This document shows, in pieces, positions 13,119 through 19,351 of a stretch of 64,000 bases of DNA (positions within the stretch are counted from its first letter, which is position 1; each line of letters begins with the position of its first letter). The DNA is taken from NCBI RefSeq assembly GCF_000633935.1, contig NZ_KK214996.1, positions 235,729 to 299,728 of the forward strand, given 5' to 3'. This DNA comes from Ectothiorhodospira haloalkaliphila ATCC 51935. Its GTDB lineage: Bacteria; Pseudomonadota; Gammaproteobacteria; Ectothiorhodospirales; Ectothiorhodospiraceae. A program made the translations under genes and the position numbers. Under the pieces are notes generated by a model. That model saw only the letters and a program-made list of their open reading frames with translations. It did no database searches and was not told the origin of the DNA.

Positions 13119-13345
13119 GGCCTTGCCTCCGGGCGACGGTTCTCGGTCATGGTGATCAGGCTCTGGGTATCTTCAACTTCCCGCGGGTGGATTGCGAGAT
13201 CACGGAATCAGCCCACGGAACCAGCCTGCCCCCCAGAATAAACCCTGTAACGTCGCCATGCGATTGGCAGTCACCCCGGCCCAAAGGGTCTATATTCGGA
13301 GTCACAAGCTTTTTTTGGCCAGTCCAAATCACTGAGGTGCAGGCC

Positions 13346-14689
13346 ATGGGCGTTGCCGATACCGCCGGACCGCGCAACATCTTCGTGGTTGGGCTGGATG
13401 ACTTTCATCTACGGCAGCTGTGCGCACTGCCAAGGGCCAATGGCTACGCCTTCCATCCGTTGTTCACTCGCGCGGAATTGAAATGTGGTGAGCGATTCCC
13501 GGTTCGGGAGTTACTGAATGACGCCCCCCGAAAGTTGCACGCATTTCATGGCCAGGTGGATGCGGTGGTGGGCTACTGGGACTTTCCGGTCAGCACGACA
13601 CTACCCCTGCTGCGTAGAGACTTCCATCTGCCCGGACCCACCCTGGAGGCTGTGCTCAAGTGTGAACACAAGTACTGGAGCCGTCTGGAACAGAAACGGG
13701 TGATTCCCGGACACCTCCCCATCTTTTGCGCCGTTGATCCATTCGCGCCCGACCCCCTTCGTGGCGTAACGCTGAGTTTCCCGTTCTGGATGAAACCGGT
13801 CAAGTCAGTACTGTCCCATCTGGGATTTCTGGTCGAGGATGTTCACGATTTCAATCGGGCGATCGCCGCAACCCGCAGGGGTATCCGGCGCTTTGGTGAC
13901 CCCTTCAACGAGATCATGAGCCATGCCCACATCCCTGCGGAGGTGGCCACGATAGACGGCAACCACTGCATTGCTGAAACACTTATTTCATCCGGTCGGC
14001 AATGCACGCTGGAAGGCTACGCCTGGCGCGGCGATGTGCGTATCTATGGCCTGATCGACTCCCTGCGCGAGGGGGTGGCAGGTTCGTCGTTCTGCCGCTA
14101 CGCCTACCCCTCAACACTCCCCGAGCCTGTGCAGGTGCGCATGACGGACATGGCGCGGCGCGTGATCCAGCAGGTGGGTTATGACGACGCACCATTCAAC
14201 ATCGAGTTCTTCTGGGAGGAGGATACGAATCGCATTTGGTTGCTGGAGATCAACTGCCGCATTTCGAAGTCCCATGCTCCGCTGTTCCATATGGTGGATG
14301 GCTGTTATCACCACCAGGTGATGATCGATCTCGGTCTGGGGCAGGAACCATCCATGCCATATCGACAGGGGGCATTCGCCTGTGCTGCCAAGTTCATGCT
14401 GCGCCATCACCAGGACGCCAGAGTGGCGCGCGTGCCGACCCCAAGTGAGATCGCGACCATCGAGGCAGAGATCCCCGGTGTACTCATCGAGATCGACATA
14501 GGGCAAGGCACGCAGCTCTCGGAACTGCGTTTCCAGGACAGCTACACCTATGAGGTGGCCGTGGTGTTCGTGGGCGCGGCCAATCATGAGGAACTGCAGC
14601 GCAAGTATGAATGCGTGCTGGCCCGCCTGCCGCTGGTGCTCGTACCCATCGAAACCGCACCCCGCGGCAACCCTGGGAGGATGCCATGA
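13346..14689 (+). CDS. ATP-grasp ligase-like protein of unknown product
   Basis: 447-residue protein with an ATP-grasp fold inferred from its C-terminal half: FWMKPVKSVLS (nucleotide-binding Lys in strand), EGYAWRGDVRIYGLIDS and FNIEFFWEEDTNRIWLLEINCRIS, where E-x-N-x-R is the Mg-ATP ligand set. The first 120 residues look like a Rossmann-type preATP-grasp domain. The start at 13346 follows a GAGG site; the frame is open 340 bp further upstream but that part is not protein-like. Its last codons overlap the next gene by ATGA, so ligase and hydrolase are translationally coupled. Such ligases join a carboxylate to an amine or thiol; the substrates are unknown. Confidence 0.75.
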   Translation: MGVADTAGPRNIFVVGLDDFHLRQLCALPRANGYAFHPLFTRAELKCGERFPVRELLNDAPRKLHAFHGQVDAVVGYWDFPVSTTLPLLRRDFHLPGPTLEAVLKCEHKYWSRLEQKRVIPGHLPIFCAVDPFAPDPLRGVTLSFPFWMKPVKSVLSHLGFLVEDVHDFNRAIAATRRGIRRFGDPFNEIMSHAHIPAEVATIDGNHCIAETLISSGRQCTLEGYAWRGDVRIYGLIDSLREGVAGSSFCRYAYPSTLPEPVQVRMTDMARRVIQQVGYDDAPFNIEFFWEEDTNRIWLLEINCRISKSHAPLFHMVDGCYHHQVMIDLGLGQEPSMPYRQGAFACAAKFMLRHHQDARVARVPTPSEIATIEAEIPGVLIEIDIGQGTQLSELRFQDSYTYEVAVVFVGAANHEELQRKYECVLARLPLVLVPIETAPRGNPGRMP

Positions 14690-16713
14690 ACGTTGTCACC
14701 GAATACCCTCATCCGGTACGCATCGAGGAACACTTGTGGATCACCCTCTCCGATGGCACCCGGCTGGCTGCGCGTCTTTGGCGGCCAGAGAACGCACTGG
14801 AGTACCCTGTGCCAGCAGTGCTGGAATACATCCCCTACCGCAAGCGCGATTCCACCCGAGCCCGTGACGACCGCATGCATCACTATGTGGCCGGACACGG
14901 CTACGCCTGCCTGCGTGTCGATCTGCGCGGCAGCGGCGATTCCGAGGGGGTGCTCAAGGACGAATACCTTCAGCAGGAGCTGGACGATGGCGTTGAAATC
15001 ATCCAGTGGATCAGCGAACAGCCCTGGTGCAGCGGCGCGGTGGGCATGATCGGTATCTCGTGGGGAGGATTCAATGGCTTGCAGATCGCAGCGATGCGCC
15101 CGTCAGCCCTCAAGGCAATCATCAGCGCCTGCTCGACGGATGACCGGTACGCTGACGACGTGCACCATATGGGCGGTTGCCTGCTGGGTGACAACCTCTC
15201 CTGGGCCTCCACCATGTTTGCCTACAACTCCCTGCCCCCGGATCCGGAGTTGGTGGGGAGCTCATGGCGTGATATGTGGTTCCAGCGACTGGAGGGCAGC
15301 GGCCTCTGGCTGGAACAATGGCTGCGACACCAGCGGCGTGATGCCTACTGGCGGCATGGCTCCATCTGCGAGGACTGGACCGCGATCCGATGTCCGGTGA
15401 TGGCCGTCAGCGGCTGGGCTGACGGTTATTCAAACGCGGTGTTTCGTCTGCTACGCCATCTCAGGGTGCCGCGGCTTGGCCTGGTGGGTCCCTGGAGCCA
15501 TAAGTACCCCCATCAAGGCGTGCCGGGACCGGCCATCGGGTTTCTGCAGGAATGCCTGCGCTGGTGGGACTACTGGCTCAAGGGGCAGGAAAACGGCATC
15601 ATGGAAGAACCCATGCTGCGTGCCTGGATGCAGGAGAGCGTACCGCCCACCACTTATTACGACGAACGTCCCGGGCGCTGGGTCGGTGAGTCCCGGTGGC
15701 CTTCGCCCAGGATTCACCTGAAGGCGTGGACGCTGGCCTGGCCGGGCACCCTGGAGATGGAGCAGTCAAAGGTGCCAAGGCGCCCCATGACGGTGCAATC
15801 ACCGCTGAGCGTTGGCCTGTTCGCGGGCAAATGGTGCTCCTACGCGGCCACCCCCGATCTGCCACATGACCAGCGCGAAGAGGATGGTGGGGCCATGGTC
15901 TTCACCAGCGCTGCCCTGGATGAGCCGTTGGAGATTCTGGGAGCGGCATGGTTGGAACTGGAACTGAGCGTGGACCGCCCAGTGGCCATGGTGGCGGCCC
16001 GACTCTCCGACGTGGCGCCCGATGATAAGGCTACGCGCATCACCTATGGGCTGCTCAACCTGACCCATCGCGACGGTTCGGCGACCCCAGAACCCCTGGA
16101 GCCAGGCAAGAACTATCACGTACGTCTGAAATTCAATGATGTAGCCCAGCACTTTCCTGCAGGCCATCGCCTTCGTGTGTCACTCTCCACCTCTTACTGG
16201 CCCCTGGCCTGGCCAGCACCGGAGCCGGTCCGGCTATGCGTCCATGCGGGTGCCAGCCGCATCGTCCTGCCGGCGCGAACCCCTTGCCATGACGAGGATG
16301 CCCGCATCAAGTTTGGAGAACCCCAGATGAGCCCGCTCTCCACGGAGATTCGGCCCATCACCGCCCAGGCCCACGACTGGCGCGTCGTCCGGGACCTTGC
16401 GATCGACCGCTCCACGTTGGAGGTTGTCAACGATCAGGGTACGGTGCTGCTGAGCACACTGGGCTTGGAGATGCAGCGCAAGGCGCTGGAGTGGTATAGC
16501 TACCGGGGCGACGATTTCAATTCCACACGCGGTGAAACACTCTGGGAAAGAGGCCTTCGTCGGGATGACTGGCAGATTCGCACCGTCACGCGAACAGTAC
16601 TGACCTCCACCATCCATGAATTTCACATACACGCCGAACTCGATGCCTTCGAGGGGGAAATGCGCGTGTATTCCCGCAACTGGGATATATCGATCCCCCG
16701 CGACCTGGTTTAA
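14686..16713 (+). CDS. CocE/NonD-family (X-Pro dipeptidyl-peptidase S15-like) hydrolase
   Basis: 675-residue alpha/beta hydrolase. N-terminal domain has LSDGTRLAARLWRP and PYRKRDSTRARDD, the catalytic Ser is in GISWGG (about residue 125), the Asp in SGWADGYSN and the His in GPWSHKYPHQG. The C-terminal third is the jelly-roll domain of S15 and cocaine-esterase relatives, ending in a segment with YSRNWDISIPRDLV. No signal peptide is visible, so it is probably cytoplasmic. A GGGAGG site inside the end of the ATP-grasp gene drives it. Family members cleave amide or ester bonds of acyl, peptide or beta-lactam substrates; coupled to a ligase, it may process or recycle that enzyme's product. Confidence 0.85.
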   Translation: MNVVTEYPHPVRIEEHLWITLSDGTRLAARLWRPENALEYPVPAVLEYIPYRKRDSTRARDDRMHHYVAGHGYACLRVDLRGSGDSEGVLKDEYLQQELDDGVEIIQWISEQPWCSGAVGMIGISWGGFNGLQIAAMRPSALKAIISACSTDDRYADDVHHMGGCLLGDNLSWASTMFAYNSLPPDPELVGSSWRDMWFQRLEGSGLWLEQWLRHQRRDAYWRHGSICEDWTAIRCPVMAVSGWADGYSNAVFRLLRHLRVPRLGLVGPWSHKYPHQGVPGPAIGFLQECLRWWDYWLKGQENGIMEEPMLRAWMQESVPPTTYYDERPGRWVGESRWPSPRIHLKAWTLAWPGTLEMEQSKVPRRPMTVQSPLSVGLFAGKWCSYAATPDLPHDQREEDGGAMVFTSAALDEPLEILGAAWLELELSVDRPVAMVAARLSDVAPDDKATRITYGLLNLTHRDGSATPEPLEPGKNYHVRLKFNDVAQHFPAGHRLRVSLSTSYWPLAWPAPEPVRLCVHAGASRIVLPARTPCHDEDARIKFGEPQMSPLSTEIRPITAQAHDWRVVRDLAIDRSTLEVVNDQGTVLLSTLGLEMQRKALEWYSYRGDDFNSTRGETLWERGLRRDDWQIRTVTRTVLTSTIHEFHIHAELDAFEGEMRVYSRNWDISIPRDLV

Positions 16714-16726
16714 CGCTGGAACAAAT

Positions 16727-16764
16727 GACACGCCCCCACGTGCGAGCATACGTGGGGGCGTGTC
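16727..16764. terminator. Strong hairpin between cocE-like gene and LH beta gene
   Basis: Fifteen-base perfect inverted repeat (16727-16741 and 16750-16764) with an eight-base loop, placed between two converging transcription units. There is no long T run on either side. It probably ends transcripts from both directions or stabilises the 3' end of the LH mRNA. Confidence 0.65.
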
Positions 16765-16793
16765 GGCTATGGCGGCAAAGCCGCGTGGAACAC

Positions 16794-16811
16794 ACCAAGA
16801 GGGCTCTTGGT
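16794..16811. terminator. Small hairpin downstream of LH beta gene
   Basis: Seven-base perfect stem (ACCAAGA / TCTTGGT) with a four-base loop, 48 bases past the LH beta stop codon. It may protect the short LH transcript from 3' exonucleases, as hairpins do in puf and puc mRNAs; this role is inference. Confidence 0.4.
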
Positions 16812-16858
16812 TGAGGGCTCTAACCCTTCATGTTCGCAAAATTGATGCTTGGCCCGGT

Positions 16859-16996
16859 TCAGAACCAGGGCCGCCACAGGAAGACGAGGAAGTGAGCAGC
16901 AGCAGCCAGCACCACGAACGTGGTGAACACGACCTTGAACTGTTCGTGAAACTCTTTCGCCTGTTCTTCAGTGAGACCCGAGATACTGTTTTCCAT
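16859..16996 (-). CDS. pucB: Antenna (LH2-type) light-harvesting beta polypeptide
   Basis: 45-residue intrinsic membrane polypeptide binding bacteriochlorophyll and carotenoid in the peripheral antenna. The N-terminus has SGLTEEQAKEFHEQF, the conserved amphipathic beta start including the His that can ligate the B800-type pigment. One membrane helix follows with AAAAHFLVFL, whose His ligates the tightly coupled bacteriochlorophyll, and the protein ends in the diagnostic WRPWF. An AGAGGTGA site lies eight bases before the ATG. It follows the alpha gene by 61 bp on the same strand. LH1 versus LH2 type is not decided by sequence alone; the alpha partner favours LH2. Confidence 0.93.
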   Translation of the reverse strand: MENSISGLTEEQAKEFHEQFKVVFTTFVVLAAAAHFLVFLWRPWF

Positions 16997-17057
16997 GCCT
17001 GTTCACCTCTAAAAATTGAATTCAGTCAATCAGAATTAAGATTGAGCGCCCGAATGC

Positions 17058-17243
17058 TTATTCAGACACTTCATAGGTCAGCGGGTTGTACGCTTCGTGA
17101 GTGAACACGAAGGAATGCACAATCAACGCCGTAGCAAGGAAAGTGATCAAGAGGGGGATCAACCAAGTACCCGGGTTGACTACCAGCCACAGTTTCCAGT
17201 CATCTCTGGGGTTGCTTGGTCTGCTCGGTCTGTATTCACTCAT
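17058..17243 (-). CDS. pucA: Antenna (LH2-type) light-harvesting alpha polypeptide
   Basis: 61-residue membrane polypeptide with the antenna alpha pattern: a charged N-terminus of about 15 residues, DWKLWLVVNPGTWLIP, then one helix with the bacteriochlorophyll-ligating His in TALIVHSFVF and a short polar tail. The WLVVNP segment resembles LH2 alpha chains rather than LH1, which usually carry a basic-aromatic segment after the Trp. A Shine-Dalgarno AGGGGAAG precedes the ATG. Unusually it is promoter-proximal with the beta gene downstream; in known puf and puc operons beta comes first. No reaction-centre genes are adjacent, so this is a separate antenna locus. Confidence 0.92.
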   Translation of the reverse strand: MSEYRPSRPSNPRDDWKLWLVVNPGTWLIPLLITFLATALIVHSFVFTHEAYNPLTYEVSE

Positions 17244-17877
17244 TACTGTCTTCCCCTGTAAAGTAAGGCTTTCAGTGAAATTGGGCCATGACTCAAGCCC
17301 TTATTAGTCGCGTAGTGCGATCTAAACCTTTACCCCTCTTGAGGGTGCGATGCCGCCGATTACCCGAACGAGGATTGAGTCCAGGCAAACAATTAACATC
17401 ACTGTTTTCATGGTTTCTAAGTCTAGACAAAAGGAAAGACAGGTCAAGCAGTTTTTCGCAAATTATCCAACATTCGGGAAAATAAAATATTTACTCCTTG
17501 CAAACCATGCACTTAAAAATAAAACCAGCCCTCGTCATTTGCTGAATTCACGTTCCAACGGGAGAGTAAAGATCAATACCTATACTCCCTGAGTATCTGA
17601 TAGATGAAAGTAAATAACCGCCGGAGCCACCTCCCGGTTTTTCACTATGACATCGAAAAACATGATGGGATAAAACTACTGATCAGCAATCCCCCACAAC
17701 GCAGCAAGGATCTGTTCGAACACCCAGGCTGGGGCTGCGAAAAGGAAACGGGGGGGGGGAAGAAAGACTATCCGTGTCTGGCGACAACAGCCAGTGCACG
17801 CGCGATCCATGACCGCGCGTGCAATGAGGTTTCAGCGATAGCCTTGGCCAGATCTCACGCGGCCAGGACCCGAATGG
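17244..17877. other. AT-rich leader/regulatory region upstream of LH genes
   Basis: About 630 bases without a convincing gene. Bases 17400-17620 are much more AT-rich than the surroundings. On the minus strand a sigma-70-like pair TTGACC (17447-17442) and TAGACT (17425-17420) with 16-base spacing would give an LH transcript with a leader near 170 nt. No clear PpsR or FNR box was found. A nine-base perfect stem (17796-17804 / 17814-17822) and a run of ten G near 17750 lie at the far end. A plus-strand open frame of 100 codons here has no protein-like character. Confidence 0.5.
17420..17447 (-). promoter_or_regulatory. Candidate promoter of LH alpha-beta operon
   Basis: TTGACC and TAGACT on the minus strand with a 16-base spacer, within AT-rich DNA about 180 bases before the alpha start codon. 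Inferred from consensus match only. Confidence 0.45.
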
Positions 17878-18095: not shown

Positions 18096-19115
18096 TTACC
18101 GCCAGGCACGAAGTTGGTCGACAATCACCTCAACGGCCGGCGGCACCTCATCCGTCAGGGGCATGCGCACCAGCAGGCCTCGATGGGAGGCCTGCAGGAT
18201 TTGCGGCTCAGGAGCCCCTTCAAAGTGCAACGAATTTACCGGCACGGCGCCGTCACCCACCGACTCACCGGTGGATGACCACCAGGCCTCGACCCGTTCA
18301 TCCAGGTCCTCGATTCCCAGATCCTCCGACAAGGCATCGATGCTGGCGCGCATCGCGGGTGTAGGCTCGGTGATCCGACCGCCAATCAAGTGCACAGGGA
18401 TCTCCTCCGGCCAGGTGCGCGCATTCAGATCACGCAAAAAGTCACTGCCCGGGCGTAGGTCAATCTTGGCGGCGCCGGTACCGTCGCGCAGGCCTGCCCA
18501 CAGGGAGAAGCGACCCTCCTGAATATCGGCGAACCACTCGCGCACCTCCAGCCAGGCACGCAGCCGGGCCCATTCCGAGCCCTGGTTGGGTGTTCCCACC
18601 ATGATGGCGCCCCCGACCCTGGGCCCGGCCACCGAAGCAGACTCGTCCTCCGGGTGGCGCCAGCGCGTGACGAAATCGCGGATGATCAGGCCGCCCATGC
18701 TATGACCGATCAGGACCACCGGACCCGACACCTCCAGTTCCTCCCAGTGCGCGGCCAGCAGGTCGGCGCTGTGATCAATGGCCTGATCGTTGGGATAACG
18801 AAACTCCCAGGTCACCCAATGCTGGGACAGCTCGGGCACCAGGTCGTCCCAGATTCCCCCGGGTTCGTCCAGGCCATGGATCAGTACCACCTCTGGGCCC
18901 GACTTGCCCTCCGGGCCGCCTCTGGGCACGAACCCCACCTGCTCGGGTGGCAGCGACATGGCCTCGGGAAACCAGGTCTCCAGTCGTTCCTGAGTCTCGA
19001 CCCGCAGATCCCGCTCCAACTCCGGATGGCGTTCCGACCAGAAGATCCACCCGGCCACCGCCGCCACGGCGAGCAGCCCCGGACCAAGCAGCAGAATCAG
19101 CACAAATCGGCGCAT
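18096..19115 (-). CDS. Membrane-anchored alpha/beta hydrolase (lipase-like)
   Basis: 339-residue protein with an N-terminal hydrophobic segment (residues 2-25) acting as signal anchor, then an alpha/beta hydrolase domain. VVLIHGLDEPGGIWDDL is the oxyanion-hole region, VLIGHSMGGLI holds the nucleophile Ser (about residue 139), and a late Asp and ASHRGLL carry the rest of the triad. The shape is like PGAP1 or triacylglycerol lipases. Start at 19115 has a CGGAGGT site six bases ahead; a GTG or ATG further upstream would precede the anchor with non-conserved residues. Likely periplasm-facing esterase or lipase; substrate unknown. Confidence 0.8.
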   Translation of the reverse strand: MRRFVLILLLGPGLLAVAAVAGWIFWSERHPELERDLRVETQERLETWFPEAMSLPPEQVGFVPRGGPEGKSGPEVVLIHGLDEPGGIWDDLVPELSQHWVTWEFRYPNDQAIDHSADLLAAHWEELEVSGPVVLIGHSMGGLIIRDFVTRWRHPEDESASVAGPRVGGAIMVGTPNQGSEWARLRAWLEVREWFADIQEGRFSLWAGLRDGTGAAKIDLRPGSDFLRDLNARTWPEEIPVHLIGGRITEPTPAMRASIDALSEDLGIEDLDERVEAWWSSTGESVGDGAVPVNSLHFEGAPEPQILQASHRGLLVRMPLTDEVPPAVEVIVDQLRAWR

Positions 19116-19351
19116 GAATACCTCCGGCCATGAGAAACGTATGAGCCATATCATTCTACAAGCCAAATCTCATGCATCACGGCGGTGAGCCAGTCCCGAT
19201 GATGAGAGGTCAAAAGGGTAACGTACCAGGCCGGCACCGAACATCCGACGGGGCAACCCGGACACATTGAAACTCGAGCCAATGGAATCAATCTAAAGTT
19301 GCACACATCACCAGTGCTTTCGGCGGGCGTTCCCGCCAAGGACCCAAAACG

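Follow-up and report, generated by a model that had tools for sequence, protein, structure and literature searches.

The antenna gene pair of Ectothiorhodospira haloalkaliphila described here encodes an ordinary LH2 antenna that is already known and structurally solved, and its unusual gene order, with alpha before beta, is the rule in the genus. More useful than the order is the observation that, among the six LH2 copies of the genome, only this one is without the PpsR-type operator, and that its beta terminus is distinct. We hold with high confidence to the overall explanation of a peripheral LH2 (B800-850) pair with a genus-inherited order, for which different regulation and beta-Trp44 bonding are proposed. 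Throughout, the window is the whole 64-kb stretch of DNA that was analysed, and the window pair is the two antenna genes within it.

The two reading frames first noticed, a 61-residue alpha upstream and a 45-residue beta downstream on the minus strand, are confirmed by their coordinates (Table 1). Both proteins score above the curated cut-offs of the Pfam LHC family PF00556 (beta 4.2e-11, alpha 5.3e-9) and of the NCBIfam models NF040862 (beta, 2.4e-20) and NF040861 (alpha, 1.6e-12), and annotation pipelines need not miss them, as the preliminary description had feared. Alpha matches chain A and beta chain B of PDB 6Q53, an entry named B:800-850 LH2, with 100% identity from end to end. The best solved matches (6Q53, 8Z4V, 1LGH, 8FB9 and 7TUW) are all LH2 and LH1 structures score far lower, so that the alignment with LH1 and LH2 sets suggested at the outset places the nearest solved relatives in LH2 and not in LH1. 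The tree also sets the pair apart from LH1, and alpha His43 and beta His35, the predicted B850 ligands, are invariant in the alignments with relatives. The matching NCBIfam models carry LH1 titles, which is a naming issue; an LH1 identity, as these titles and the WRPWF motif might suggest, was ruled out by the structure matches and the tree. Because both proteins are identical to the 6Q53 chains, the locus is a puc (LH2) pair and neither a relic nor an unknown antenna.

Presumably 6Q53 is the E. haloalkaliphila LH2 entry of Leiger et al. 2019. The literature searched contained no paper that names 6Q53 or 8Z4V; an X-ray structure of E. haloalkaliphila LH2 is on record (Leiger et al. 2019, cited in PMC8775250). 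Since the six LH2 pairs are alike, the chain assignment in a crystal of native protein could partly be a modelling choice. Given its identity with an entry named B:800-850, the window pair would bind BChl a and carotenoid and absorb near 800 and 850 nm. At 4.5 K the LH2 of E. haloalkaliphila has its peak at 862 nm (PMC10613661).

Table 1. Features of the window pair and its neighbours (window positions)
Feature	Position	Strand	Details
LH2 alpha apoprotein (pucA type), first gene	17058..17243	-	61 aa; PDB 6Q53 chain A identity; PF00556; NF040861
LH2 beta apoprotein (pucB type), second gene	16859..16996	-	45 aa; PDB 6Q53 chain B identity; PF00556; NF040862
Alpha-beta spacer	16997..17057	-	61 nt, alpha stop to beta ATG; fold z-score 0.03
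3' region, three hairpins	16727..16858	-	fold -65.3 kcal/mol, z -5.39; terminator scan
Last hairpin, 15-bp stem	16764-16727	-	terminator- or mRNA-stabiliser-like
Promoter-like TTGACC-N16-TAGACT	17420..17447	-	204 nt 5' of alpha ATG; hexamers common to paralogs
Alpha/beta hydrolase, upstream neighbour of pair	18096-19166	- (same strand as pair)	
S15/CocE-type hydrolase, downstream neighbour of pair	14611-16713	convergent with pair	

Purine-rich, ribosome-binding-like stretches (AGGGGAAG; TTAGAGGTG) are found one 5' of each gene, alpha and beta; the alpha peptide contains the stretch MSEYRPSRPSNPR and beta terminates in W-R-P-W-F. No Rfam element was found at the locus. Reaction-centre, bacteriochlorophyll and carotenoid genes, noted before as lacking nearby, were not recognised in a Pfam scan of the 40 window proteins, the remaining scanned proteins being housekeeping or metabolic. 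Homology to pufL lies beside the pair at C3:297506, on another contig; the antenna pair is therefore away from the pufLM operon, and its description as a separate antenna locus is upheld. Stand-alone antennas are normal in this genome, where C3:297506 is the only one of three LH1-type pairs tested that adjoins a pufL-like sequence. The two extra LH1-type beta-alpha pairs, at G000:C4:571645 and G000:C1:43948, are situated apart from the puf operon, with no pufL found in the flanks examined. The G000 contigs C1 (386,956 bases) and C3 (386,950 bases) harbour different LH2 pairs, and their near-equal size is probably a coincidence.

Two further observations concern the surroundings. About 3.5 kb of the window (13131-16671), comprising an ATP-grasp-like protein and the S15/CocE hydrolase, have no counterpart at the corresponding site of the sister species G009, which reflects either an insertion here or a deletion there. 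In five genomes another LH2 pair has a paralog or ortholog of this hydrolase (58-60% identity) at a distance of about 5-22 kb (G000:C3:34597-36591, G009:C1:3067523, G003:C12:11887, G004:C2:120938 and G005:C25:198083).

The nine LHC pairs of the genome divide into six LH2 pairs, which are alpha-first, and three LH1-type pairs, which are beta-first. Across ten Ectothiorhodospira genomes alpha precedes beta in 38 of 42 LH2 pairs, and the LH1 pairs of the genus are beta-first. The four beta-first exceptions represent one orthologous locus (E. shaposhnikovii, E. magna and E. lacustris) adjoining an alpha-first pair. At this locus (L026, L029, L031 and L035) an alpha-beta pair comes directly after a beta-alpha pair, both having promoters of their own that bear the palindrome, and this beta-alpha-alpha-beta arrangement is an order reversal inside one genus. 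Thiorhodospira sibirica (L044) has five tandem beta-alpha pairs, all beta-first, and the LH2 genes of a soda-lake MAG (L019) and of Thiodictyon (L083) are beta-first as well. Sampling across the phylum and one other class added 35 distinct antenna loci, and beta came first in all of them, in line with the earlier statement that puf and puc operons nearly always have beta first. For Phs. molischianum and the Chromatiaceae, the class, phylum and order samples yielded LH1 or other loci only, Thiodictyon being the one representative of the Chromatiaceae; the locus tags given for Alc. vinosum (PMC11267869, Table 2) convey gene adjacency without strand. The window pair does not have the usual, though non-defining, beta-before-alpha puc order, and it had been singled out for this. 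The five alpha-first paralogs together with the genus counts rule out that it is unique by gene order and make alpha-first a clade trait of Ectothiorhodospira LH2. The order is thus a real departure from the wider rule, but one that belongs to the LH2 of the genus and not to the locus, and it is an inherited feature without a demonstrated function of its own.

What does set the window pair apart within the genome is its promoter. The LH2 genes of Ectothiorhodospira share a promoter of the form TTGACA-N16-TAGACT, and most such promoters have a TGT-N12-ACA palindrome over the -35 hexamer, over the -10 hexamer, or over both with starts 26 nt apart. Other purple bacteria have this palindrome as their PpsR/CrtJ site, a role assigned to it in Ectothiorhodospira by analogy; a PpsR/CrtJ gene is present in the genome (TIGR02040, 537.9 bits against a cut-off of 275.4). 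With up to one mismatch, a palindrome occurs at the promoter of 31 of 36 LH2 loci of the genus (27 of 32 alpha-first and all four beta-first), and 26 palindromes were observed in 24 upstream regions where 1.65 were expected. The motif was not found upstream of the three LH1-type pairs. The paralog promoter pattern matched exactly five places in the genome, each 5' of another LH2 pair, with no control matches. The promoters of these paralogs, p1-p5 (L004, L005, L006, L007 and L008), are near-invariant, with overlapping palindromes, at scattered loci.

In the 64-kb window TTGAC[AC]-N16-TAGACT has its single occurrence at 17447-17420, upstream of the pair. Palindromes are present in all five paralogs of the genome, the window copy being the sole exception among six: both are missing from its promoter and from that of its ortholog in the sister species (L148), even when one mismatch is allowed. 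The locus is not the only one of this kind: three other pairs of the genus (L023, L036 and L054) are likewise without a promoter palindrome, although such cases are uncommon.

The second distinguishing character is the beta terminus. Beta ends in PFY in 37 of the 37 other Ectothiorhodospira pairs compared and in PWF in the window pair and its ortholog; PWF ends are also found in the soda-lake MAG, in most Thiorhodospira betas and in Thiodictyon. In Phaeospirillum molischianum beta-Trp44 hydrogen-bonds the acetyl group of B850 (PMC9618040), and on this ground it is a fair expectation that the B850 tuning of the window pair differs from that of its paralogs. The lost palindromes and the PWF end of beta together mark the pair as a divergent LH2 paralog, probably under a different control than the other five.

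The origin of this divergence can be read in more than one way. The joint alpha and beta tree requires about three changes of order; beta-first LH2 relatives surround the genus, and one or two gains of the alpha-first order both fit. The window pair could have been gained laterally from a beta-first lineage near L019, its alpha-first order arising separately from that of the five paralogs, for example by excision from a (beta-alpha)n array in the alpha-beta phase. The tree indeed joins the pair to L019 (84/88) and leaves it outside the remaining Ectothiorhodospira LH2, its alpha shares 75% identity with one from L019 and 66-74% with those of the paralogs, the pair and L019 both have PWF-type beta ends and the FTTFVVL motif, and the pair is present in only two of the ten genomes of the genus. 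The tree support is not strong, however, and the data are compatible with a single Ectothiorhodospira clade (AU p 0.40). The TTGAC-N16-TAGACT promoter common to the paralogs argues for a shared ancestor within the genus, and an old duplicate that was lost elsewhere fits the same data. On balance we regard lateral gain as rather unlikely.

Far less probable is that the alpha-first order is an adaptation shifting the alpha:beta ratio or the order of antenna assembly. The order differs from that of nearly all other taxa sampled and has been kept over 38 pairs, which speaks for such a reading. Against this, all five paralogs share it, a paralog lineage of four genomes has beta first next to an alpha-first pair, and the alpha-beta spacers of the LH2 pairs range from 9 to 62 nt. 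The spacer of the window pair has no significant fold, while the 3' region is strongly folded, and a fold z of 0.03 rules out that the ratio is set by an attenuator or terminator located between the two genes. LH2 rings are assemblies of alpha/beta heterodimers (PMC10798160), and with an unstructured spacer the altered ratio put forward earlier finds no support. The inherited, genus-wide order is the reading that we retain.

The pair is also very probably in use. Between it and L148, found at the matching position in sister species G009, alpha has nine synonymous and one non-synonymous change and beta five and none, a total of 14 to one that speaks for purifying selection at the sequence level. 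Promoter hexamers and their spacing are identical in the two, the ribosome sites are kept, and the 3' region is conserved in 126 of 133 columns with its hairpins largely retained; the spacer is the least conserved part, with identity in 48 of 62 columns where the genes reach 95-96%. A decaying copy out of use, as also considered in the preliminary description, might be read from its place as the most divergent LH2 paralog and from its lack of the palindromes common to the others, and is refuted for practical purposes by the solved structure of the identical protein (6Q53), by purifying selection and by the conservation of hexamers, ribosome sites and 3' hairpins.

For the preferred reading of a divergent LH2 paralog, the following course may be proposed. 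Transcription would start from the promoter at 17447-17420, yield a two-gene mRNA and end at the hairpins near 16727. Unlike the five paralogs, the pair would not be directly under the PpsR/CrtJ regulator of the genome, and for that reason the conditions of its expression may differ or be broader. The two peptides would pair 1:1 and bind BChl a through alpha-His43 and beta-His35, and the heterodimers would assemble into a ring feeding LH1-RC, in which beta-Trp44, a Phe in the other pairs, would keep the Phs. molischianum-type hydrogen bond to B850. A bolder version, possible but tentative, is that of a distinct LH2 lineage, either ancestral in type or acquired, that has been freed from direct PpsR/CrtJ control and has kept beta Trp44. 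If so, the cell would produce a second LH2 that differs in its B850 hydrogen bonds under conditions that switch off the five palindrome-bearing copies, or the window-pair peptides would be mixed into the rings of those copies. The LH2 of E. haloalkaliphila has an anomalously broad inhomogeneous distribution of 254 cm-1 (PMC10613661), which such mixing could underlie.

The solved LH2 has now been placed in its genome as one of six paralogs, with alpha-first as the rule of the genus. The genome thereby offers a natural comparison in which five LH2 promoters have PpsR-type operators, one has none, and all drive similar antennas. Both the role of the operator and the part that beta Phe/Trp44 plays in B850 tuning can thus be tested directly, and in an organism that is already in use for LH2 spectroscopy.

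Among known systems, the LH2 of PDB 6Q53 shows no protein difference from the window pair, the match of both peptides being complete; the structure record does not cover gene order or promoter. PDB 8Z4V and 9W1C match paralog p1 of this genome (C4:1464958) in the aligned parts. This paralog shares with the window pair the fold family, the alpha-first order and the -10 hexamer, with a nearly identical -35 hexamer, and differs in having both TGT-N12-ACA palindromes and a beta ending in PFY, where the window pair has no palindrome and a beta ending in PWF. The CrtJ double site of the Rhodobacter capsulatus bchC promoter extends from -47 to -30 and from -21 to -4 (PMC5362033); the palindromes of p1 and p2 likewise cover -35 and -10 with starts 26 nt apart, whereas both are absent from the window promoter. 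The LH2 of Phs. molischianum (PDB 1LGH) is a near solved relative by sequence with beta Trp44 in common, while the alpha Trp45 reported for 1LGH corresponds to Phe45 in the window pair, if the numbering is shared. The array of T. sibirica (L044), from the same bacterial family, has homologous alpha and beta proteins, but as five tandem beta-first pairs, in contrast to the single alpha-first pair of the window.
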